Assembly: GCF_021134715.1 (NCBI RefSeq)
Contig: NC_060020.1
Coordinates: forward strand, 5,518,001-5,582,000
Length of the DNA: 64,000 bases
Reading direction: 5' to 3'
Source of the DNA: Daphnia pulex
Taxonomy: Eukaryota; Arthropoda; Branchiopoda; Diplostraca; Daphniidae
The position numbers and the translations under genes are program-made. The notes beneath the pieces are model-generated. The model was not told where the DNA came from. It ran no database searches and saw nothing but the letters and a program-made list of their open reading frames with translations. Position 1 is the stretch's first letter; every line of letters starts with the position of its first letter. This document shows positions 8,200-24,633 of this stretch, in pieces.

Positions 8200-11100
8200 C
8201 TAGACGCTTGCGAGCTGCTGAAGCGGAGTATGGTTAGATGATCTCTCTGTGATTTTGTAGCAACGTTTCCATATCTCGCAGAGACAAACTGTCGAATGGT
8301 AGCGATAGAAAATGGCCAGTGGAGAGCTGATGTTAGTGATGATAGTCCATGGCCACTGACCAAAAAATTGCGATTGGACGGGGTGGGCGTCGAATCGGCT
8401 CTTCTCCAACGTTATAATGGCCCACTGTTGAATGCGAGAAAATATTGAATGAATGAGACAATTGATCGTGATGCATCGGTTCTCATAGTACCATCGCAAA
8501 GTTGGTGACCATTAAGAAAGTGACGACTTCACGGCCAGGTTTGCGCTGCTCCTGGCGTCTAGTGTAGAGGTGTCGCTTGGAAGAACCGAGGACAAACACG
8601 GTTTGAGCTACAGCCTGCACGACGGCCGTCAAGGCATTGATTAGCACCAGCATCCTGTCCGGATGGTCGCTGAACTGGGTTCCGATTATGGTAAAGACGT
8701 TGTAGGAAATGACGCCCGTAAGAGCGACGATAAGCAGGATGTTGTCGAGATCGAGCGGATGGGAAGCATCAAATTGCAACTGGCTCACCTGGGAGAAGTT
8801 CATCAAACAAATGAGAAGCGTTTGGTTTTTATTGGTCATTATTTACACTTACTTGTATGATTCCAATTAAGACGGCGATCAACGTCAACATGTAAAGAAT
8901 CAGTTCGGCCAAATGGACGATAGTGATGGCTGTACTTTTGTATTCCTCGCGATGGATCAAGACGAAAAACAGTATCATGGCCAAAATGCTTAGCACCAAG
9001 ACAAAAATTCCAAAGAAGAGGCCTTTGTTGGCGTTGGTACAGTCGACGGAATAGTGGTGCGGGGAACGACGTTGCGAATACGGATAAAAGCTTCCGCGGG
9101 GCGTTCTGGGCGTACGGACGCCGGCCGGTGAATCGTTTACCGAACGGGCCAACTTTTGGTGGCGATTTTTTCCAGTATGTTTCCATATTTCGTACATTAT
9201 AGCGGCGCATATCAGAGAATATTCGATGGCGCATGGAAACAGGAAAGGACTGGCATTCTGCGTCAGTGTTCCCTTTTTTTTTTCAAATGATTGTAATTGA
9301 TTTAGTAACTGTGTAAGTAGGAAATACGAAAGCAAATAAGTCTATACCATCAAATCTGAGCGATGGCATTCGTCCGACAGCGTCCTCTTGCCCAGCCGAT
9401 GGTATGATGGAGAATGATATTCACCTTCATCCTGGACGTGGTCCAAAACTGTCTTGTTCAACCAGTGTCCAATCACGGCTGAAGCGTCAGGGTCGACGGC
9501 ATCTGCTAGTGGACGTCCTAGTCAATTATATCAGGTCTTTTGCCTAAAATCCAATCTGTCAAAAACCTGCTATTTGGACGAGCTCTTCACCGTGTCCAGA
9601 CACCTGATGCCGGTCGTGCTCGGTTGTGTCGCCACCTCCATGCTGCTCGAAATTGAGGATCTCGTGTTTTGTTTCCTGGATGATAACGTTGAGCCAGACG
9701 CAGAGGTTCGTGGCTACGATGTGCATCATTCCAAAACGAGCCACAATGACGTTGCTGTTCTTGACAATCTGAATCTGCAATATGCCACAGGTCGTAATCA
9801 ATTCAAGCTCTTTTTTGTTAAATGATTATTCATTAATAAAATCCTACCTTTGCATTTAGGAAAACGAAATACATTTGGAAAAATGTGAAGAGCATACGCG
9901 ACGCTGGCTGAACTGCCATCATTATGTCATCGCACAAAGGATTGGATGACATTTCAAAGTATTGAGCGAATTCCAGCCCGGAATAAATCATTGAGCCAAC
10001 TCCAAACACTGAAGAGGTATCGTATATGCTTTTAGAAACATTTATGATTTTGTACATGTGGGGTCTGAAATGGTCATATACCGACGGCTCCCATGCGAAG
10101 GTAGAAGGATCCGTGGTTGGGACTGTGTCTAGGATCGAGTTCTTTGCCAAGAGTAATCCGTAATCGACTGGTCATTATGTCCTCCAGGGACAATCCATTG
10201 TCTTGAGAGGCACCGTCGCCATCAGCCGTTGTTTTGGCTATCTTTTTATCCTTGAGACGCTGCGTCATTTGATACCAACCTGAATGGGATAGAATATTAA
10301 GCACATATGGTTTACGAAAAGCCAGTCGTTTGTCGGTGCTGCCGGTCGAGCGGGAAGTAGGTCATCTTTACGTCTTTTCCACGTTAGCGAGTTGAATTGG
10401 GTTTTCAAGAGGACGTAAATGTAGCCAAAGAATCCAATGGCCACAAAGTAGAGGTAAGCGTAGAATCCCTGTCCGACGACATTGAAAAATCATGCAATCT
10501 GGATCATTCTCTCTGCGATGATCTATCATTTTATCCGGCGGTTGTTTACCTCGTAGTAGTGAGATGGGATCTTGATGGAAATGACTTGTGAAGTAGGAAA
10601 GGCCACGCCCATAACTACCAGCATGATTCCGTATAGAGCGCTAAGCATGTCGACAGTAGCCTGCCTGATATTGTGACGACTGCGGTTCTTTTATTTACTC
10701 TTTTCAATCAAAATTTGGACTCGGGTCAACTTACTTGCCGTGTTGTTTCCATAATTTGATGACTTTCTCTGGGTGGTTCCGCTGATGTGTTGGAGTGTTT
10801 TGGCCGCTAAATGGCGGCAAAGACATCCGGTCATTGATTGTGGGCAGTGGCTGGGTATTGGCCAAAGTAATCTGATTTTCGCTTCGAAAATTCTGCTTGA
10901 TTATTGCTCCGCCTAGGATAGGTTTTTCTTTGACGGGTTTCAAGAGAGATTCCTGCTCGCTTTTCGCTTCTTCCGCAGCCGTCGATCTGACGCTTCCCAC
11001 CAAGGTTCCACTTTGGCCGTAATCAATATTGTTAAACCGTGTCGTCTTGCGCCAAAGAAAAGTGTCGTATTTCTATATTATCATACCTTTCCTGCGACTC

Positions 11101-11350
11101 GGTCGTCGCCGGAACTTTCTCTGCTTTTGATTCATTCGTATTCCCATCGCATGTTGGGCATATTTCCTTCGTATGAGACTTGACCTCAATCGGCTTGGGA
11201 CTGGACGGTCGCGATGTTGTGTGGTGGGACAAATTTCTGACGGCTGTGCAAATAAACTCAATGGAAGATCTCTTCCTAGTATTTCTGATAGCGGTAGCTC
11301 CATCCGCTACGCCGTTCTTCGAATGACCAACTTCGTCCACTCCTTCCCAG
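8200..11350 (-). CDS. Otopetrin proton channel (paralog B), extreme 5' end not located
   Basis: Eleven exons join in frame: 11087-11350, 10735-11010, 10550-10664, 10372-10468, 10082-10279, 9848-10008, 9591-9774, 9348-9517, 8853-9257, 8492-8788 and 8200-8424. They carry the same otopetrin blocks as paralog A: MLSALYGIMLVVMGVAFP, GFYAYLYF, NHGSFYLRMGAV, FGVGSMIYSGLEFAQYFE, HIVATNLCVWLNVIIQETKH, FPCAIEYSLICAAIMYE with HHYSVDC, and the terminal WPWTIITN with YHSTVCLCEIWKR. Three homologous exons have identical lengths in A and B (115, 97, 161 nt), which supports both models. The first listed exon starts in phase 2 after an AG with no in-frame ATG, so a small upstream start exon is missing. Paralog A begins with such a 20-nt exon. 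The 276-nt exon border at 11010 is inferred from phase. Some introns differ from paralog A (see findings). Confidence 0.92.
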
Positions 11351-14300
11351 CTTCACAAAAATCGAAAAAAAGAAAAGATATTTTAAAATCGTACACTTGA
11401 TTATTTCTTATGAAATAAGACAAAAAATAATCTAGGAAAAAAATAATCTTTCGTAAAATCAAGTTCTAAATAACACTTCAGGTTCAGGGATAGGTTGTAA
11501 GAGATTTTCGAAGTAGGTCGCTATAATACAGAAAGTCAGAAAGCCAAACGAATCTTAAATATGATAGGACTCTTATTTTATAGTTGCGACCATTTAGCCT
11601 TGAATTTAACTGTGTATACAAGTTTTTACAAGTTTTTATTTGACTGTCCTTTGTGTGAAAACTTGTGACTATTGTTCGATATCCGCATAGCGTCCCTTCG
11701 TTTCAAATAACAATGGCGAAATTTTTTACTTCTGCGTTCTGCCTTATGTCTGTAATGTTTTTTCTTTTAACGGAATAGTTTGTATGTATTTCAAGGGCGA
11801 CCACTTACAGCCGCCTTTTTTTGGCGTTCAAACTTTACCGTTAAATTCAGATCAGACAGAAACATCGAACAACGAAAAGAAAAATAACAAGATGAATTTA
11901 ATAGAGAAGTCGGTAATGTCGCCGTTATTAAAATAACATTAAAATAACAATTACATTATCGACTTTTATTGTCAATAATCAAATGGTTATATAATCATAC
12001 CGGACTCGAGCAGTCATCCTTTTTTTTGTCTGATGAGATAAACCGCTTGTCACTAAAACTGTTTAGCCAAGTTTGATTACGAATGTCACTCGCTTTTGTC
12101 CACGAAATGAAAAATGGAACTTTTTCAAAGTAGAAGTGAATATAAAAACCCCACTAATATTTTTGTTTGTTATCTTTCAGCAATCACAACTGGACAAATC
12201 CATGACTGGAAAGAAACGAAGATCCCCCAACGGCCAAGATCACCGCGCCACACTAAGCTCGCAAGTAACTAGCCCCCGCAGAACCGAGTTCGGTTGTCTT
12301 CCTAAATTGCGAAGAATGAGCGAGGCAGAGAGTGATTAAGAGAGAAAAAATCAGTTCGGGATATTACGCTCAGGGATCATGTGCTTTCCACAGCCCGCGT
12401 GCTCTGACCGCACATCTCGGACGGATCGGTGTACTTGATGACATGCGAGAATGAGAGGATTTCCAGATGAGTCGCGAACGAGAACGAATTCAATCAGGTG
12501 ACAAGGGAAGAGAAGTAAGTCATTAAAGGGAAAAAGAAAGCTTGTTGTGTTGTTATTCATGAGTCGCCATTCGCCATGCAAGAGTCATGCGGCTTTGGGT
12601 AAATTCGGTTCACGGTCGTCACTTCATCGGAATGGATGATGGACCGACCTAAAAAAATCAAGTAGAAGTGGCTGTCATCATGTGACTTGCTTATTTAACT
12701 AGAACCGTGTATTACTTTTACGATGCTCCCATAATAATCTCGTTCGCATTGGCTAGTGATTGAAGGAGGTCGATGCAGTCCGAACGTGATGACTGAATTG
12801 CAATCCATCGATGTCAACGAGTACATGCATGGTGAAAAAAAGGCGCATCCATCTGCCAGTCGGTTTTGAACCAACAAACATTGATGGTACTGCTTTACGC
12901 CATGTTTAAAATGATAAGACTCTTTTCACGTTGAAGATCGATCCAACTGCGGCACCCGCATCCGGGTGAATGGTGATATATTTATTGATTGATTTCCAGT
13001 TGCGCTGCCTTGTCACTGGTGGCGGGGGCGAGTGCCAGATGCAGGAATACAAGACTGGGATCCTGCAGCAGTTGTGAATATTTGATGATTTTTGTAATCG
13101 CGATGAGGGAATGCATGGTCTCGTGAATACCAGAGCCCTATTAACTCTGAGAACTTGGTCTTATTGTGGACTGGGCAAAAGTATCTTTTGAAGTCAATTT
13201 CCTGTCTTCAAAAATCCCGAGATTTTTGGAGTGCATAGGGCAAGTTCAAAGAAGCCGTCGATTCTTTCATCAACTTCAGTTTAAATTAGATACGTCAATA
13301 ATTTAGCTAATTCGACAGATCTTCGGGCGCGTGATTTTGTGAACATTTTCCATTCTCGTCCGCTTGAAATGTGTAATATCGAACGGGATTTTGGAATGTA
13401 ACTTATTAATATCTGTATCTAGGGCTCATTTTTTTTATTTTATTTTTTTATTTGATCAATTCCTAGATTCAATTTTGCGAGTTCGGCATGATTTAGCAAT
13501 CACATAACAACAATAAACATATGCTAGGTTGCTCCCTTTCGATGATTGATAGAAGAATTTTCCATGTATGACCGCTCCTTCCTTTTTTTATCACGTTTAT
13601 TGATCTTGTTCTTGGCCGGTTTCGTCGCCTCGTAATCCCCGTCTCGTTTCTCCGAATTTCTCCGCCCGTCTTCACTTGTCAACATATTTCAACATAACAA
13701 GTTTTGCAAAGTAACAGAAATAAGTTCGAGAGAAAAAAAAAGAAGACTCACAAATTGCGGCCTCTAACGGTGACTTTCCTCTAGAGAATATTTCTGCGTT
13801 ACATTACAGACTATGTGGAACTATTTGGCAAATTATATGCAATACATGCAGTAGCTTACACATCGATTACTGTAAGGTGGATCGATACTCCCCGTCTAGA
13901 CTCAAGGTTTCAATCACGTATGCCAGATTAAGAGTTTTGTTTTTCTCCTTTTACTTGGAAAGCGATACTCTATAAAATATCGCTTTCACTTCACTTTGAA
14001 TGATGGTCTCTTATAAATTTAATGGTGGCGATCCGGCTGCTTATATTTCAAGATCGGCCATTCTACGTAGAAGCTACGGAAAAAAGTGAGTTTGATTTCA
14101 ACTTGCTGGGAGATTACCGATGAAAAAGAATGGGGTCCGTTTAAATGATAGATAAAGAAAAACCCTCATCCAGGTAGGCATTCAATTTATTACGAGTCCT
14201 CGATTCTAAAATGAGGCCGTCGACTGGGCCCCCAATTTAGAAAGACATTGTCGATCGATACTTAATGCTTTATTCTATTCAAGGTTGTTCTAAGATCCCA

Positions 14301-14756
14301 AGACCTGCTGTGAATCACGCATCCTTTGCAACGTGTACTTGACTCTTATTAATGCTACTCGTCCCGCCGCTGCCGCACTGGCGAGATAGCGTAGCCAACA
14401 GAAACCTTGAAAAGTATATTCACCGCTCATGTAGCCTAATCCTTTTGTTCATTTATCAAGTTTGTAATGGATAAAAAAAAATAATAATAAAATAATAATA
14501 AAAAAAAAATTCCTCTTTTTTTTTCCCGGTTGAATTCTTACAAGACCTTCACGTTATTTTTGTAATTTTTTAATCCTTCACGGACGGCAATGGAAGCTAG
14601 TATTTCTAATCCTCCTTTTGAAGTAAAAACATTATATATTTTCCAACATTTTTCACTGTTGTTGTTGGATTCACGCCAAAAATTGCTTTTTCACGTCAAT
14701 GCCCGGCTGAGCACAACGACCGTGAATCGTTTGATCAGTTCATAAGATTAATAAAT
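11351..14756. other. Intergenic region between otopetrin B and DAP5
   Basis: AT-rich with short A/T runs, for example an AATAAT-type run at about 14470-14510 and direct ATTAAAATAACA repeats near 11930-11950. It should hold the otopetrin B start exon and promoter, which I could not place. Apart from the weak candidate exon at 12181-12339, no coding sequence is supported. Confidence 0.5.
12181..12339 (+). other. Candidate terminal exon, unknown small basic protein
   Basis: A good acceptor (pyrimidine tract then CAG at 12180) is followed by an open frame to TAA at 12337-12339. It contains an ATG at 12202-12204 and encodes a Ser/Arg/Lys-rich peptide starting MTGKKRRSP. No family was recognised and no partner exon was found, so this may be noncoding. 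Confidence 0.2.
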
Positions 14757-14800
14757 TGACCGCTAGGTGCCGCTAGGAAAGTACCACTTGACGCCATCTA
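14757..14800. promoter_or_regulatory. CTCF-like motif cluster upstream of DAP5
   Basis: Two CCGCTAG-type words and one CGCCATCTA word (reverse complement TAGATGGCG) lie about 80-125 bp before the inferred DAP5 start of transcription. Similar words recur near other gene ends in the window. Factor identity is inference. Confidence 0.3.
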
Positions 14801-14880
14801 TGAAAACGTTTCCAAAACGTCAATAAGGTGTTGCTACACCAGAGGGAAGGGTAGGACGATAGTACGTCTAGTGTAAGTCT

Positions 14881-16670
14881 CTCAGTTGCCGAGACTGTTT
14901 CAGGAGGGCGGAAGTCAACAGCCTTGCCTCCATAGAAAAAAAGCATAGGCTCCCATCACTCAGAAAGATTCGAGCGTTGTAAGTACACATTTTTCCAACT
15001 CGTCCTTTTTTATTAGAATTTGTGGCATTTACACGTCTTTCCGCCATGTTTCCTTTGTCCTGGGTTGAGCGAAGAAAGGTCTTGTTGGACGCTGGCCGAC
15101 ATGAATGTGAACCGTGAAATAAGTGATGAATTACTCAGAGAATTCACTAGAACAAAGGGGAGCTCTTCCATGTGTCTATTTGCTTTGCATTCAATTAGTA
15201 ATGTGCTAATCGTAAGGGGAATGCAAATTGAATGTGATGAACTCGAGTGTATTGAGTAATATTGTACAACAAAGCTTTATTTCATCATTAAAAAGCAATT
15301 GAAGGTTGGCGAGACATTATGTTTGTTACGAAATGATACGTATAAATGCAACATCCCACAAGCCTTCGTACAGCGCCCTCTTGAGACGCTTAAGGTCGTT
15401 TACCCTACTATCCGGTCCATATTTAATTATTTTTTGTAGAAAAGGAACGAAAATTTACGAAGCAACCTGATCTTGAGCTCAAAAGTTCTGTTCTTCTCCG
15501 TTCGGGAATTGTACATTTCCGCTTTCGAATAAAAACGAGACATTCTTTTAGGGAAGCCATCTTTTTTTTTTTTTACGGGGAGAGACTCGTTTTGGTGCGT
15601 CCCTTAGGGCCCCCGAGGGCAGCTAGGGCTTTTTGGAATGTGTCTCGGTCCAAGTGTATGTACGCAGGGAAATGTGGAGACCTTGATGTCGGTGTGTAGG
15701 TGCCATTGAACTTATTTCGGAAATGGGCGTCCGTCGCCTCTGAAGAATTATGTTGTTGGCGGGGATTGTGTGTGTGTGTATGCGGTGAACGAGCCGTAGC
15801 TTATAGTATAGTTGCCGTAGGTGCAAGCCCCCCGAGATCTCGATCAATATTTAGGCTTGGGATGCGAGTTGTGCAGCAGCAGCAAGCATATAGCACACAC
15901 GTTGGGGCGACGAAAGAGAAAAAGAGGGCTGTAGCAAGACTGCTGCTAGCACCCTCATCCGGTGCGTAATATTGATTTTGATTGCGTGCGCCCCTCGTTC
16001 CTTCTATTTAGTGCTTTTAGCCCGCACTGTACTTGTGTCGTCGTCTTGTTTCCACCCCTTGCGTCACCCACAGAACAAGAGTTCGGGAATCTACCCTCTA
16101 TTTCGAGGGCTTTTCCATTGCGCCTGCGTTGCCTTTTCTCGTAGAAGCGAGTACACACTAGTGACGTAATACAATCGTGTAGGTCGTTATTTTAACTTTG
16201 CAAGAGGGAAACTTATTTTCTTTTCCAGAATTTACTGCCCACGTCATTGTAACTAAGGTAAGGTTGGATTATATTTAAGGCCACGGACTCACGGGGCCCT
16301 TGAGAAAGGGAGAAAGACTCGGCCTTGGGCGTGTTGCAGATTGCGAACTCAAAAAGAAAAAATTGAGGTCACTACTAAGAATTCTCCTCCTACATGATCC
16401 ACTCCCCATTAGTCACACGTTCCAAGTTCGACAGTAGAGGGCTCGTAGCTCGAATCTGTGTGTTTAGTTGCGAAACTTCTGTCTGCGTCAAACACATCGT
16501 CTCTCTCTTACAACCGTTACGCAGTTTATTGTGACATTCGACAGTGCTACATCAATCGAACTCATTTGTGCTCTCATTTTCTTTCTTTCAGCTTCACTTA
16601 CTCGTGAAAAGAACGCAGTTGGGACGTGTCTCCGTAATTTTTCACCTTGGCGGGCCCAATTCAAAGCAAA
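14881..16670 (+). promoter_or_regulatory. DAP5 5' leader: initiator and AUG-free spliced 5' UTR exons
   Basis: A TCAGTT initiator-like word sits at about 14882. The likely first exon ends at 14978 before a GTAAGT donor. A second possible leader exon is 16229-16257 (TTCCAG acceptor, GTAAGG donor). The third begins at 16592 after TTTCAG and runs into the coding region. None of the three contains an ATG in any frame. An in-frame TAA at 16635-16637 closes the reading frame upstream of the proposed start. Exon joining is inferred from splice signals. Confidence 0.5.
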
Positions 16671-19600
16671 ACGGACGGGCAGCGAGGACACGGAGGTATT
16701 AATCTGTCTAATTTATTCATATTTCTTGGTCTAATTCATCTTTTATTTTAGGTGCTTCTCGTAGCCTAGGAGGAAGGTAACAGAATCACACATTTCATCC
16801 TATTCCCTTTTCAGTCCGTTGTTGTCCATAACTTGTTATCCTCCGTGGCCATGTATGGAAGATTGGAATGGTGTCAAACTATTTCCCCGTGTCCTGCTTT
16901 TCTTGTATCTCACCAAAGTTTACTCCTGTCTTGTTCTAATTTGGTATTCTCTCTTTCTTCAGGGACGATCCACGATCCCAAGTGTCCACAGGCAATCGCA
17001 GATGGATTCCTCCCAGTACTTACAAACGAGATGCACCTTCTAATGAAAACAAGAATGACATTGTCTTTCGAAAGGTATTACAATGGTGTTTCATCATAAT
17101 GCTTTTTTATAGGTTTCTTTGGTAGAATAGGAAACATAATCACTATTATTTGATCGTAACTTGTAATATTATACTTAATCTTGCTTGATTGATTATTCTT
17201 AACTATAGAATAATTTTCAAAATGAACAACATTTTCAATATCCTGTTTCCACTTTTTTAGGTTCGCGGTATCCTAAACAAACTAACTCCGGAAAAGTTTG
17301 AGAAGTTGAGCGATGATTTGCTGTGCATAGGGTTGGACTCTCCGACCATCTTGAAGGGAGTGATTCTACTCATCTTTGAGAAGGCTTTAGATGAACCCAA
17401 GTACAGTTCTATGTACGCACAGCTGTGCAGGCGTTTATCTGAAGAAGCCCCCAACTTTGAACCGCCAACTAACGCCAACGGCAGTACTCCCAGTATCTCT
17501 ACCTTCCGGCAGCTGTTGCTTGCCAAGTGCCGTGTCGAGTTTGAAAATCGTTCGGCCGCTCAAGAGGTCTTCGAAAGTCGCGATGGCTCTCTCACAGCCG
17601 ACGAGGAAGAGCAACGTCAGACGGCCAAGCGTAAGATGCTTGGCAACATTAAGTTTATTGGTGAATTGGGCAAGTTGGGTATGCTGCAGGGTGCCATCCT
17701 CCATATGTGTATCCAGCAGCTCTTGGAGAGGAAGCGCAGGGGGGGCATCCGTGAGATGGCAGAAGATTTGGAATGTCTATGCCAGATCATGAGAACCTGT
17801 GGTAGGATTCTCGACATCGACAAGGCTAAATCCTTGATGGATCAATATTTTGACCGGATGGCTGCATATGCCGTCAACCAAGAGCTGCCCTCGCGGATTC
17901 GTTTCATGATGCAGGACTCCATCGACCTGCGTACAAATCATTGGCAGCCACGCAAAATCGCCTCGACCGACGGGCCACGAACCATTCAACAGATTCGGGA
18001 AGAAGCTGCCCGAGACAGTGGTGTCTACCTTCCGCCACCCGGTTCCCACTTGATGCAAGGTATGCATCGTGGTGGCGGTCCTGGCGGTATGGGAATCAAT
18101 CCACCATCAGGACTCTTCCCCGTTTCACGTTCGGGTCTCAAAGGACCAATTGGCATCGGACTTGAGGATGTCTTTGGTTCCCTTCCTTTGGGAGCCGTTA
18201 GTATTGGTACCGGACCTGGAGTCATTCCATCCATGCAGGTTAGAATAATCTTCATTATTATTTTAGTCGTTGCGATCGATATATTGCGTGTACATCAATT
18301 ATAATCTGGTTGTTACATTTTAGGATGGTTATGGTTACGATAGTGATTCGACTCACAATGGTCACGGACACAACCCAAACATGTACCGTGGGCGCCCGTC
18401 TTATGGAAGTACGGGTAGCGGTGGCAGTGGAAGTGGTGGTTATTCGTCAAGCCGATCGCCAAGCAATGGCGTCGGCAACTACCATGGCGGTGGCAACAAC
18501 AAGCAGTTCTCGGCTCAAAATCACCACCAACAGAACATAAACCAAGCCAACAATGCCAAAAATGACCTTCCACCACGCTTCAAAAAGATGATGATGACGC
18601 AGCAAAGAAGTCAAAGCAGCACGGAAGAAGTCAGTCTCCGTCCGCCGGCCAATTCGATGGTTAACAAACCAAAGCCATCGACTGTACTATTACCCAAGTC
18701 AGTCACAAGCAATGCTGCAGCCGGAAACAACCACATTACCGGTCCGCTTGGACCCCTTCTAGACGCTGCCCTGCCTATGAATTCATCGGCTGTATCTAAT
18801 CCATCCAAGATTCCTGGTATGGGTCTAAATCTGCAAGAGATAATGCCCATTGGGGTAAAATCTGTAGTCCCGACCGCAACCGATAAACAGAGATCTCCAC
18901 GAAAAGACCAAGGCCCCACGAAAGAAGACATTGTCAAGCAAGCGGAAACTGTACTGGAAGATCTCCTCAATCGTCAAATAGTGGAGGATAGTGTCAATGC
19001 TCTGAAGGAGATTAAAATGATCGATCGATTTTGGACTCCTGTTCTGGCTCGTCTCATGGCCAAAGTCCTGGACAAATCGGACTCTGAGCGGGAGCTGGTT
19101 AGTCAGTTGATGGTCCATCTGAAGAAAGAGTCTCTCATTACACCGTCTAATTTTTTCGACGGCTATAAAGAGTTGGTCTCTCAACTGCCCGACATAGAGA
19201 ACGATGTGCCTCGAGCCAAATCTTTTGTGGCTGGATTGGCTGCACGCGCCGTTATGGACGAACTTTCTACACTTGCCGATTTGGCACGACCACTGGAAGG
19301 CGGTTACCAATATCCTCTTTTCCTCTTGACGCTGCAACAACTGCACAAGATTCAGGCCACCGAAAGGTCTGTCCTGATCAAGTTGTTCAACGAGTCCAAA
19401 GTTCAACTTATGAACATGCTTCCAGAACTCGATCGTAACAAGGATAGACTTGGTGAGATCTTAGATGATCGTGGTCTCAGCTTCCTGTTTCCTCTGTTGC
19501 GCATCCAATCTGATCTGTGGAAACAGATTCAAGCCGACCCCACTCCTGCTCAGTTCTACAAGTGGATTAAAGAAAATGTTGATCCTTCTTGCTACACTAT

Positions 19601-20122
19601 GCCGGGCTTTATCTCAGCCCTGTTTGCCGTTCTTCTCAAGTATATCGCTCAAGAATCGGCCCCGAATGACGCACCTACTACCAACGGATCAACAGAAAAC
19701 GGGTCTATTGCAACTGCTACGGACAAGGTGACACAGGAAAAGGAAAAGGAGCTTGTGGAACGTTATCGACCCGTGTTGCAGGCTTTCCTTCACGACCATG
19801 TCTCACTCCAAGTCACTGTCCTGCATGCCCTGCAGGCCTTCTGTCACGGACTTAACTTTCCCAAAGGCATGCTTCTTCGCTGGTTTGTCCTTCTTTACGA
19901 CCTGGAAATAATCGAAGAAGATGCTTTCCTCAAGTGGAAGGAAGATCTTACCGACGATACCCCAGGCAAAGGCAAAGCTCTCTTTCAGGTAATTAATTGA
20001 ATAACAATTGCAGATTTTTAAGTTCAAATTTTACATTAAAATGGATTTGTCTACAGGTAAATAACTGGCTAATGTGGCTAGAACAAGCCGAGTCTGATGA
20101 GGACGAAGACGGCGATGCTTAA
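16671..20122 (+). CDS. eIF4G2: eIF4G2 / DAP5 / NAT1 (p97) translation factor, non-AUG start
   Basis: Exons 16671-16695, 16752-16776, 16963-17074, 17261-18238, 18324-19988 and 20057-20122 give about 956 codons, close to the vertebrate protein at about 907. DAP5 is an eIF4G paralog lacking the eIF4E- and PABP-binding N terminus; it binds eIF4A and eIF3 and drives cap-independent or eIF4E-independent initiation in the cytoplasm. MIF4G runs about residues 55-275 (VRGILNKLTPEKFEKL, MLGNIKFIGELGKLGML, EDLECLCQIMRT, SLMDQYFDRM). An IGTGPGVI motif and a Gly/Asn/Gln-rich linker follow. MA3 spans about 578-700, and a W2 domain with an acidic tail about 790-956 (FPKGMLLRWFVLLYD, GKGKALFQVNNWLMWLE). There is no in-frame ATG between the upstream TAA (16635) and the middle of MIF4G. 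ACG at 16671, in AAA-ACG-G context, is chosen because it lies eight codons before GASR, as the mammalian GUG start does. Confidence 0.95.
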
Positions 20123-21080
20123 CGAAGGACAGCTATAGGAATTTATTAAAACACGGCACAAAACCAGGAGAAAGCACAGCGCGCTTTACGCATCCTCCTA
20201 CCAAGAGACTAAAAGAACGGCCTTTGAAGAAGTGACTTTTTTTTCCTCAGTCCATATGATGGTGGCCTCACTTTTGGTCCACGCTCCGTTGCCGTTGCAA
20301 ATATCCTTGGGTTGATTGAACGGGAATGAAGAGGGAGAGAATGAAAAAAAATAACAATTTCTTTTGCTGTCGACTCAAAATCTTTCGTTTCGTGCTGTGT
20401 TCTTTTGTTGCGCTTTGTTTTTCTTTTCCTTATCTTGTCCTCCCATCTCTGTTGGTTTTTTGCGCCGAATGCGCTCTTTGGCAATATGTTCAGAGTCTTT
20501 TTTGATGCTTTACGGGCTCGTCCCTAACTTTAGTTCTAATCAAATTTGAACAGGCAAAAAGCTAGAAACATTTTCTTTCATCTCACTCCAGGAGATGTTT
20601 TTTTTTTTGGCCGACGTCAACAGCTGAAGGTCTAACACTAAATATCTAAATTCTTTGAGTTTCCTCTTTCCTCATGGACCCCACTAATTTTTAAAGGAAA
20701 TGCCTTTCTGAGGCTTTTTCGTCAACATCTTTTTAAGGGAAAGATTTTTAAACAAATACTATTTCAACACACCTTTAAATTCGTTGCAACTGGGGATTAG
20801 ATGATTTCCATGAAGTGTGTGATTGTACTGCTCCCTCTTCGCTGATTTTTTCTCTGATCGACTTGCACTTCAGAAAACAAATGAAATGATTTCAAATTTA
20901 ACGCGCGCACGTTTCTTTTTTATTATTATTTTGGAATTCAATGGACTTAATATCAAATTCCAGTAAAAATAATTTGTTGCTTGCATTAATTTGCAGAGCT
21001 TGTCTGCCAAAAAAAAACACATTTAGGGAAAATTACAGTACTTGAACGAATTATTCTGAAATAAATGAGTTTGAATAAAA
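20123..21080 (+). other. DAP5 3' UTR
   Basis: AT-rich sequence after the DAP5 stop, with two polyadenylation hexamers AATAAA at 21060-21065 and 21074-21079. No coding frame is supported. Confidence 0.5.
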
Positions 21081-21235
21081 GAGAGTAATCAACTTAATGT
21101 CCATAACTTTGCTTGTGGACTGCTACTTTCCTGGCTTGAGGTTGTGGAGGATGGTAATTCCAAACGCAATCTTCCAGTCTGTTTAGAAACCTTAAAATTT
21201 TCTCGGCCCTTTTATCTCCTTCGACCGCACGGCAC

Positions 21236-21385
21236 TTCTCACTGGCGTGCAGTCCTCTCGTCGCCCGGAAGCATAGGAGATAAGGGGAGTACATTCCCAA
21301 TCGACTTCCTACTGTCATCCCTGCCTTCTACTAGTGAGCAATACTGCTCACTTGCATGCCGTCCTTTCGTCGCTCCGAGGCATGG
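21236..21385. repeat. Imperfect direct repeat, about 50 bp, two copies
   Basis: Two related blocks at about 21236-21285 and 21335-21385 share the order TCACT, GTCGTCC/GTCCT-TCGTCGC and GCATRGGAGA. They overlap open frames on both strands (minus-strand frame 21094-21318) that I could not assign to any protein. Possibly a remnant of a mobile or duplicated sequence. Confidence 0.35.
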
Positions 21386-21650
21386 GAGAGTTGAGCCTGC
21401 TCCAGCTACCTATCGAACCCGACCAGCATCATTCGACTACCCAGCCAACTTGAACTACCCCAGGCAGGAGAAAGCTCTCAATGCAGAAGGGAGTTTCTTG
21501 AGGACGATGAGATCTTGATTTTAGTGAGAAGAATATGTTGTGAGTATATTTTTTCTTTTGTCTTTTTTTTTTTTGTTATTGTTATTTCAATTCATTATTT
21601 CAATTCAATTCATTGTGGATTAGTGTGGATTAGCTAGAACAGGGATGTCT

Positions 21651-21896
21651 TCTTTTTGACGCTAGATGGCGTCAATCTAAGGCAATCTTCGATCGTTTTT
21701 CAGCTGTCAAAAGCACTAGCTTTAATTACTTTTATTTTTCTAAAGTCATTTATTGGAGTTATTGTGAGATTATTTGGGGTGATATTTGACCGTAAGTGAT
21801 CTAGTTACAAAGCTCACTTGTTAGATTTTTGATAATTTGCGTTTATATCTACTTCCGGTTTTAAATCAGTTAATAGTTCAGTAAGTTTTCATGTGA
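21651..21896 (+). repeat. Left arm of a long diverged inverted repeat
   Basis: This block is repeated in inverse orientation at about 26838-27062. Shared words in the same order are CTTTTT, ACGCTAGA-GGC, CAGCTGTCA, an 18-base identity beginning ACAAAGCTCACTTG, CTACTTCCGGTTTT, and TAGTTCAGTAA followed by TTCAT. Spacing between words differs, so the arms are old. It includes a near-palindrome GACGC-TAGATG-GCGTC at 21658-21673. Confidence 0.55.
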
Positions 21897-22202
21897 CTTT
21901 GAACAAAACTGTGACAAAACGGCAACCTGCAAAAGGAAAGGCACTAAAACTTGCCATGCAGAGGTTGGGTGAGAACGGGATGTGTTGCATAACCATTTGG
22001 TATTCATTTTGATATTGGTTGTTGTAGACCCAACCCCAGCAACGACAACCTGCAAAAGGAAAGGACAGTCATACTCGAAGGTCACGGAGAAAAATGTGTC
22101 ATGCAGCGGTGCAGAGGATGGGTGAGAAAGGTACGTGTTTCATCATTATCAAACAGGTACAATATCCGCAAGGCTTAAGAGGTGAGGGTGATAAAAAAAT
22201 CG

Positions 22203-22239
22203 TATATAAAGGAGAGAGAAAAGGCCAGAGACATCAGTC
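22203..22239 (+). promoter_or_regulatory. TATA box and TCAGTC initiator of Tyr-rich copy 1
   Basis: TATATAAA at 22203-22210 and a TCAGTC initiator at 22234-22239 are about 33 bp apart (TATA start to initiator A), the spacing of a focused arthropod core promoter. The first ATG follows about 80 bp downstream at 22318. Confidence 0.6.
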
Positions 22240-22317
22240 GAGTGAGGATCTCCGACACGGCAACAACTGCAGCGCACTCACCATCTGCCTTCTTCACCGT
22301 ATTGCCAGTTCGCAACC

Positions 22318-23697
22318 ATGGGTAAATATTTTTTACATTGAGTTCTGTATCAATCTTACTGTTTTCTTGATGTATGCCTTTATTGTTATTTTATCTTTAT
22401 GTTTAAATTTGTGAATTGTCTAGTAAAGTATGGCGTCGTGCTGCTGTTGTGTGTTGTATCGTACTCGGCTGGGTCGACCATTGGTGTACCGATGTCTCCC
22501 TGCTATGGAGAATACCAAACCGCAACGCCGCCGCCTTGTTACACGACAACATACAAAACAGTCGGTTACTGCACCTCCAAGTACTACACCACTTAGGCAC
22601 CGGAGTTTTATGCCACAACTTAAGCTGCTCCGAGCCACTACACTGACGACGTGAAGTATTACTCTGCCCCGAGTTACTAAACCACCAAGGCGACGGAGTA
22701 TGACTATGCATGCTGCCCCATCCTACTACATCGAGGCTCCTAAGTATTACTCTGTTCTCAGCTACTTATTGCACTGATTTTCCTAATTACTCTGTTCCCA
22801 GCTGCTACACCGAGGCTCCCGCTGATTACTCCACCGAGGCTCTCGCTGATTACTCCACCGAGGCTCCCGCTGATTACTCCACCGAGGCTCCCGCTGATTA
22901 CTCCACCGAGGCTCCCGCTGATTACTCCACCGAGGCTCCCGCTGATTACTCCACCGAGGCTCCCGCTGATTACTCCACCGAGGCTCCCGCTGATTACTCC
23001 ACCGAGGCTCCCGCTGATTACTCCACCGAGGCTCCCGCTGATTACTCCACCGAGGCTCCCGCTGATTACTCCATCGAGGCTCCCGTTGATTACTCCACCG
23101 AAGAGGCAAAGTACTACTCTTACGCTGCCCCGAGCCATTACACTGATGCCCTGAAGTATTACTGTGCCCCGAGTTACTACACCACCAAGGCGACGGAGGA
23201 TGACTACGCATGCTGCCCATCCTCCAAGGCTCATACACCGAGGCTCCTACACCGAGGCTCCTAAGTATAACTCTGTTCTAATCTACTTATTGCACCGATT
23301 TTCCTAAATACTACTCTGTTCCCAGCTGCTACACCGAGGCTCCCGCTGATTACTACACCGAAGCGGCAAAGTACTACTCTGCCCCGATCTACACAACCAC
23401 AACTGAGGCGGCCAAGTATTACGCTGTCCCGACGTACTACACAGAAGCTGCTCTTTCGTGCTGCGTTGAACCGAAATACTACACTGATGCTCCAGTTCAC
23501 TACACCATGACCTACGCTACACCGCAGCCCCCAAGTACTACAGCGAAGAAGCCGCCTATTATGCAACAACGTATGCTGCCCCTGCCTACTACACCGAGGC
23601 CCCGCATTACTACAACACTGAATCGCTCAATTACTACACTACAACCTAAGCTGCCCCGAGCTACTGCTCCTACGTCCCGAAGTATTACTGTGCGTAA
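22318..23697 (+). pseudogene. Tyr-rich secreted structural protein, copy 1 (decayed)
   Basis: Exon 1 is ATGG (22318-22321) with a GTAAAT donor; exon 2 starts at 22424. The start reads MVKYGVVLLLCVVSYSAGST, a signal peptide, followed by Tyr-rich repeats such as YTT, APSHYTD and KYYSAPSYYTTKATE. The frame is broken by TAG ending at 22596, then two TAA codons, each where repeat logic predicts Tyr (TAC/TAT), and by at least two frame changes near 22700 and 23215-23290. The 22710-23264 segment is open in another frame and holds a 12-unit EAPADYST array. Similar Tyr-rich secreted proteins suggest a cuticle, egg-coat or adhesive matrix role, but I did not recognise a named family. The TATA/initiator core upstream looks intact, so a truncated peptide of about 58 residues could still be made. 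Confidence 0.6.
22812..23099 (+). repeat. 24-bp minisatellite, 12 units, coding EAPADYST
   Basis: Twelve consecutive 24-bp units, nearly identical at base level, each encode Glu-Ala-Pro-Ala-Asp-Tyr-Ser-Thr in one frame. Variants are EALADYST in unit 2, EAPADYSI in unit 11 and EAPVDYST in unit 12. The homogeneity indicates recent slippage or unequal exchange inside an otherwise decaying gene copy. Confidence 0.95.
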
Positions 23698-23789
23698 AAG
23701 GAGTCGTCTAAAAAAAAGAAGTCGTGCCCGAACTGCAGTGCCCTATCTGTCACCAACTGCATTCCTCATCGTGTAACCGATTCGCAATT

Positions 23790-24269
23790 ATGGGTAAATA
23801 TTCTTAATTTTTCGAATTTTGTATCAATTCTATTTTTTCTATTCGTTAATATGCCTGTTAAATTTAAACATTAATATTAAATATTATTTCATGTTTAGTC
23901 ATCTATAGCGTCGTGTTCCTGTTGGGTGTTGTATCGTTGATGGCTGGATCGACCGCTGGTGTAGCGATGTCTTCTTGGTATGGCGGATATCAAACCATAA
24001 CGCCGCCGCCTTCCTACACAACTTACGCACCGACGAGTTCCTGCACCGAGGTCTTCAAGTACTACACCACTAAAGCACCGGAGTTTGATACCACAACTTA
24101 CGCTGCCCCGAGCCACTACACGGACACCCTGAAGTATTACTCTGCCCCGAGTTACTACACCACCAAGGCCACGGAGTACTACATGACAACGCATGCCGCC
24201 CCATCCGACTACACCGAGGCTCCCAAGTATTACTCTGTTCTCAGCTACTTACTGCACCGACGCTCCTAA
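23790..24269 (+). CDS. Tyr-rich secreted protein, copy 2 (truncated by frame change)
   Basis: Exons 23790-23793 and 23899-24269 encode 124 residues. A signal peptide, MVIYSVVFLLGVVSLMAGST, precedes Tyr-rich repeats (SYTTYAP, FKYYTTKAPE, APSHYTDTLKYY, APSYYTTKATEYY, APSDYTEAPKYY). Gene structure, signal peptide and repeats match copy 1, so the two are tandem duplicates about 1.5 kb apart. The frame ends at SYLLHRRS because of a one-base phase change at CTACTTACTGCAC; the downstream frame carries on with the same protein style. No TATA box as clear as that of copy 1 was seen. It could be a functional short protein or a pseudogene. Confidence 0.5.
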
Positions 24270-24633
24270 CTACTTCTCTGTTCTCAGCTGCTACACCGAG
24301 GCTCCTGCTGATAACTCCACCAAAACAATCGAATACTACACCGAAGCGGCAAAGTACTACTCTGCCCCGATCTACACAACCACAACTGAGGCGGCTAAGT
24401 ATTACGCTGTCCCGACGTACTACACAGAAGCTGCTCTTTCGTGCTACGTTGAACTGAAATACTACACTGATGCTCCAGTCTACTACACCACGACCTACGC
24501 TACACCTAGCTACAACACCGCAGCCGGCAAGTACTACACCGAAGGAGCCGCCTATAACACAATCACGTACGCTGCCTGGTATACTACATCGAGGAATTTA
24601 AGTATTATCCTGCTCCAAACTACTACCATCTGA
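24270..24633 (+). pseudogene. Frame-shifted C-terminal part of Tyr-rich copy 2
   Basis: Starting about 24245 and running to TAG at 24631-24633, another frame encodes more of the same protein: YTEAAKYYSAPIYTTTTEAA, KYYAVPTYYTEAA, YTDAPVYYTTTYATPSYNTA. It is separated from the upstream part by the single-base phase change near 24250. The ancestral protein was therefore probably about 270 residues. No stop interrupts this downstream part. Confidence 0.55.

Follow-up and report, generated by a model that had tools for sequence, protein, structure and literature searches.

Among proteins that start at a codon other than AUG, the closest described system is EIF4G2 (DAP5/NAT1), whose start is GUG in vertebrates and non-AUG in the ascidian Halocynthia roretzi and in Drosophila melanogaster (PMC9977666, citing Takahashi 2005). 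The GUG has been termed evolutionarily conserved, and DAP5 itself is reported to affect start-codon choice (PMC10325891), while the preference of genes such as EIF4G2 for a sole non-AUG start is stated to be unexplained (PMC9789052). Here we describe the DAP5 gene of the crustacean Daphnia pulex in a window of 64,000 nucleotides (GCF_021134715.1, contig NC_060020.1, positions 5,518,001 to 5,582,000, forward strand; coordinates below are those of the window), which comes from an assembly of 133,188,837 bases in 13 contigs. Our analysis indicates that its protein is very probably made only from a non-AUG start, and probably for the most part from an ACG at 16671.

Gene identity and the opening of the reading frame

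By its domains and its similarity to solved chains, the gene is the DAP5/NAT1/eIF4G2 orthologue of Daphnia. Starting at ACG 16671, the modelled exons (Table 1) form a single open frame of 956 codons that ends in a stop codon at 20120-20122. Donor scores in this text rest on approximate metazoan weights that were not trained on Daphnia. The predicted protein carries the Pfam domains MIF4G (residues 53-281), MA3 (585-693) and W2 (876-953) in that order, and phmmer against solved chains placed human eIF4G2 (3l6a, 1.1e-107; 4iul, 6.5e-94) ahead of the best eIF4G1 chain (4.8e-70), a ranking by E-value without a tree and over chains of unequal length. With just 52 residues ahead of MIF4G, the protein lacks the long N-terminal part of eIF4G1, and no eIF4E-binding motif was seen by eye. 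DAP5 membership is indicated by the domain order, by a sequence nearer to eIF4G2 than to eIF4G1 or eIF4G3, and by the absence of the long N-terminal region that binds eIF4E and PABP. Other DAP5 orthologues were confirmed neither among 18 pattern matches in viral contigs nor among 39 in bacterial and archaeal contigs, as expected for an animal gene.

An earlier note on this DNA had claimed that the frame entering MIF4G is closed upstream by a TAA, that it holds no in-frame ATG until well inside this domain, and that its N-terminal part crosses two introns with GASR and then RWIP ahead of MIF4G. All of this was borne out on the modelled exons: counted from the ACG, GASR starts at residue 9, RWIP at residue 30 and MIF4G at residue 53, and codon 105 is the earliest ATG in the frame. 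Directly upstream of each of coding exons 1-4, the genomic frame meets a stop before any in-frame ATG (4/4), and the probability of finding no Met in 104 codons is about 0.02. The human eIF4G2 chain 4iul (MIF4G) aligns from residue 42 of the Daphnia protein onward, and residues 42-104, all upstream of the first in-frame Met, align closely with human eIF4G2. Since this similarity begins at residue 42, the start should lie between the TAA and codon 42, unless another exon joins, and the modelled exons hold no in-frame ATG in that interval. They show the sequence marks expected of an exclusive non-AUG start, namely an upstream stop, no in-frame AUG before the conserved coding part and a near-cognate codon in strong context. 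Given the closure of the frame, this lack of an ATG and the match to the human protein, the non-AUG start proposed earlier is well supported, and it is very probable that the start is one of two near-cognate codons, ACG or TTG, taken together.

Were translation to begin at codon 105, the first in-frame AUG, or through internal entry, the protein would be shortened and would lack residues 53-104, the first quarter of MIF4G. This codon is the seventh ATG after the ACG in the spliced mRNA, preceded by six that are out of frame (+90, +119, +131, +143, +215 and +293), and its context is poor, with 2 of the 7 positions that we scored against the non-AUG optimum of PMC9082881 (section 6). The human residue aligned to it is Leu, the human chain has its first Met, within the aligned stretch, opposite Met180 of the Daphnia protein, and the residues that would be lost belong to the closely aligned part. 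We consider such a start extremely improbable.

Near-cognate codons and a predicted hairpin

From the TAA to codon 42, the in-frame near-cognates are TTG (8 codons before the ACG), ATT (4 before), the ACG itself, AGG (codon 17), GTG (24) and ATT (32). The ACG has the best context at 6/7, followed by TTG and AGG at 5 and the others at 3-4. An AAG at codon 47 also scores 6/7 but lies inside the conserved part, and AAG and AGG are reported to be essentially unrecognised as starts (PMC9789052). The A at -3, the G at +4 and the distance of eight codons to GASR that the earlier note gave for ACG 16671 are all present, and a C at -4 can be added to them. In the coding sequence, 5 of 952 codons are near-cognates scoring at least 6/7 (AAG and AGG excluded); upstream, 24 of 6590 positions hold one. 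At one column named beforehand, here taken from the presumed human start, the chance of such a codon is about 0.5%, and about 0.3 would be expected over the stretch of about 53 codons. That the start position is shared with vertebrates presumes a human start eight codons before GASR as well; a literature search for the presumed human N-terminal peptides found none.

Within the last leader exon, eight near-cognates lie 5' of the ACG when all frames are counted, and only the TTG at 16647 combines a purine at -3 with G at +4. This TTG is in frame, scanning ribosomes would come upon it before the ACG, and its flanks include C at -4 besides A at -3 and G at +4. If TTG were the main start, with the ACG minor or unused, the product would begin MAGPIQSKTDGQRGHG-GASR. 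Its context of 5/7 against 6/7 agrees with its earlier description as a second, weaker choice, and in a frame opened by TTG the hairpin predicted below would begin about 31 nucleotides in. Of the NUG codons tested in the human NAT1 context, UUG is the weakest (AUG > CUG > GUG > UUG, an order that does not include ACG), and an upstream UUG in human NAT1 reporters was reported to be uninvolved (PMC11706245). A main start at TTG is unlikely on these grounds, and the ACG is preferred.

In the spliced mRNA, a hairpin is predicted from +7 to +41 of the ACG, with four pairs, a one-base mismatch and then a stem from +12 (-18.5 kcal/mol). At 36 nucleotides, a size picked after the hairpin had been seen, its window ranks first in stability among 2914, and the surrounding windows rank first of 2910 at 40 nucleotides. 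Six other sizes are less favourable, the best near-start window ranking 13th at 24, 29th at 30 and 6th to 66th at 45-80 nucleotides, and shuffling of a 60-nucleotide stretch gave 10 of 200 sequences that were equally stable (z -1.77), so the fold is only moderately unusual. Hairpins some 12-18 nucleotides downstream are reported to aid weak or non-AUG starts, and one at 5 nucleotides did not (PMC2001202); the outer stem here, at +7, precedes this effective region, and the main stem begins at +12. Because the 5' arm and loop lie in exon 1 and the 3' arm in exon 2, the hairpin would be absent before splicing, and the unspliced exon end (16671-16695) alone gave no structure on folding. Rfam returned no match at the gathering score in 10000-24000, and a bacterial promoter scan of 16400-16700 was empty, which has no bearing on a eukaryotic gene. 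That the predicted hairpin possibly helps initiation at the ACG is a lead, not a result.

Leader, upstream exons and points against the ACG

Several observations weigh against a start at the ACG. The GCCGCC enhancer upstream of the human GUG is absent here, save for the C at -4, and the first coding donor (16695) is weak, with a score of 0.03. The codon itself is one base from ATG and was seen in a single genome, so the species may mostly have ATG, the ACG being either private to the strain or a mistake of the assembly; the two differ by one transition, and the flanks would equally fit a normal start, CAAA-ATG-G. This explanation has to reckon with an assembly of long contigs (13 for 133 Mb), in which the 5' stretch 16592-17074 has one match, itself, and with the non-AUG state reported for vertebrates, an ascidian and Drosophila (PMC9977666), which makes the ACG no surprise that needs explaining away. 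We hold it to be very unlikely.

The leader adds further doubt. The earlier note had stated that the leader exons lack ATG in every frame and that scanning ribosomes would meet no competitor. The first part stands, in that the plus strand is free of ATG in all frames over 14803-15045, 15865-16393 and 16397-16850 and the modelled leader exons fall in these stretches; the second is limited by ATGs at 14800 and 16394, which would enter the leader if, respectively, transcription starts earlier or the last leader intron stays unspliced. The former sits just before the candidate first leader exon, whose 5' end is set here only by this ATG. The donor at 16257 scores 7.25 and is the sole donor above 4 in 14500-16760, and that at 14979 scores below 4 and is outside the donor list. 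By chance, the 79 nucleotides before the ACG would lack ATG with a probability of about 0.26, and a leader guessed at 207 nucleotides with one of about 0.03, which makes the absence of ATG from the leader evidence of weak to moderate strength. The ATG at 16394, just 5' of the ACG exon, is out of frame with DAP5; it is intronic if donor 16257 is used and otherwise opens an upstream reading frame.

An unannotated 5' exon could also give an in-frame AUG by joining exon 2 or 3 and skipping the ACG exon. An ATG exon at 15862-15961 is compatible in phase with exon 2, and its donor score of 2.82 beats that of the ACG exon; the scan for such exons covered 14500-16700 and was set against 58 control segments. 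ATG chains to exon 2 were no commoner than in the controls, with 2 against a mean of 5.5 (standard deviation 5.3) at donor scores of at least 0, hence not enriched, and 1 against 1.7 (2.8) at scores of at least 2.5, no more than chance. No ATG exon joined exon 3 in phase in the scanned region at a donor score of at least 2.5. Use of the exon at 15862-15961 would bypass the ACG exon, although the acceptor of the latter looks good by eye, and the 33-residue product does not resemble a DAP5 N-terminus. A start from such an exon appears quite unlikely.

Table 1. Modelled features of the Daphnia DAP5 gene (slashes mark exon-intron borders; the two leader exons are inferred from sequence)
Feature	Position	Strand	Remarks
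Candidate first leader exon	14803..14978	+	start set at the end of the upstream ATG; donor GTAAGT at 14979
Candidate second leader exon	16229..16257	+	acceptor ...TTTTCCAG, donor AAG/GTAAGG
Exon with leader end and frame start	16592..16695	+	acceptor CTTTCTTTCAG by eye; donor GAG/GTATTA
In-frame TAA closing the frame upstream	16635..16637	+	
TTG, rival or minor start	16647..16649	+	in frame, 24 nucleotides 5' of the ACG; A at -3, G at +4; context 5/7
Proposed ACG start codon	16671..16673	+	CAAA-ACG-GA, context 6/7
Predicted hairpin, 5' arm and loop	16677..16695	+	hairpin +7 to +41, spliced mRNA only
Coding exon 2	16752..16776	+	encodes GASRSLGG; carries hairpin 3' arm
Coding exon 3	16963..17074	+	encodes RWIP; AUGs +90, +119, +131, +143, all out of frame
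Coding exon 4	17261..18238	+	MIF4G domain; first in-frame ATG at 17411
Coding exon 5	18324..19988	+	MA3 domain and most of W2
Coding exon 6	20057..20122	+	W2 end and stop codon

Two introns of the gene open with GTATTA (16696-16701 and 17075-17080), a weak donor by the usual metazoan weights; the one at 17074 scores 0.99. A search of the own genome with the exon 4 protein revealed no retrocopy that would witness the spliced 5' end; its 11 matches (best candidates only) are DAP5 itself, seven other MIF4G loci and three pieces near C4:483-484 kb (36-45% identity). The seven loci (on contigs C2, C3, C7 four times, and C8) are 37-41% identical to DAP5, and five of them are uninterrupted open frames of 1001-1144 residues. 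Both of the two loci scanned with Pfam have a KH domain, and three 9.9-kb regions share pieces of 82-91% DNA identity that extend past the frame, which suggests that these MIF4G-KH loci form a duplicated or mobile family. Elsewhere in the window, open frames at 22704-24633 contain repeated peptides, e.g. tandem TEAPADYS, and perhaps encode a secreted or structural protein.

Proposed mechanism and comparison with known systems

If the leader is spliced as modelled, 40S subunits recruited to the cap would encounter no AUG while scanning the leader. The ACG would be accepted owing to its favourable context, with CAAA before and GA after, possibly aided by the predicted hairpin from +7 with its main stem from +12. 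Met-tRNAi would then read the ACG, and the chain would open Met-Asp-Gly, where human eIF4G2 presumably has Glu as its second residue. Ribosomes that pass the ACG would reach out-of-frame AUGs, the first at +90 with a frame of 13 codons, and would yield no DAP5, whose abundance should accordingly track start-codon stringency. We infer this dependence by analogy with the human gene, in which GUG starts NAT1 translation about a third as efficiently as AUG (PMC11706245) and eIF1 strongly affects an eIF4G2 reporter that begins with GUG (PMC10742948).

As the pattern is already published for vertebrates, an ascidian and Drosophila, conservation between crustacean and vertebrate is an extension of it and not a new principle. 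What appears new is a crustacean case with a different codon (ACG) and a predicted hairpin, the non-AUG start of DAP5 being known. No report of a DAP5 start in a crustacean was among the matches listed, which cover open-access literature and therefore leave room for a report elsewhere in print; the main text of PMC4528330 (FlyBase) makes no mention of NAT1, and the passages of PMC11149892 and PMC9726905 hold nothing further on the start codon. The crustacean ACG would serve as an independent data point: under selection for weak initiation itself, the codon could drift, though not to AUG. In practical terms, an annotation demanding ATG would cut Daphnia DAP5 inside MIF4G. A wider proposal, which we put forward tentatively and with more doubt than confidence, is that arthropods and vertebrates have inherited from their common ancestor a start placed eight codons before GASR, with the codon drifting among near-cognates under selection for a weak start, and that start-codon stringency sets DAP5 throughout the bilaterians, in Daphnia with the help of a junction-spanning hairpin.

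Vertebrate EIF4G2/DAP5/NAT1 resembles the Daphnia gene in family, in domains and in its sole non-AUG start (PMC11706245), which is proposed for Daphnia. The two also share C at -4, A at -3 and G at +4 around the start (human context: PMC9082881) and near-cognates shortly upstream, an AUU of minor use there and an in-frame TTG and ATT here. They differ in the codon, GUG there and ACG here, in the GCCGCC enhancer, which is found there only (PMC11706245), and perhaps in the hairpin, which is predicted directly after the start in the folded Daphnia mRNA. Drosophila and Halocynthia NAT1 are invertebrate orthologues with a reported non-AUG start, as proposed here (PMC9977666). Beyond the family, AGAMOUS combines an ACG start with a predicted downstream hairpin, although its hairpin lies at position 30 and the protein is unrelated (PMC2001202), and TRPV6, likewise an unrelated protein, has a sole ACG start, as suggested here for Daphnia DAP5 (PMC9789052).

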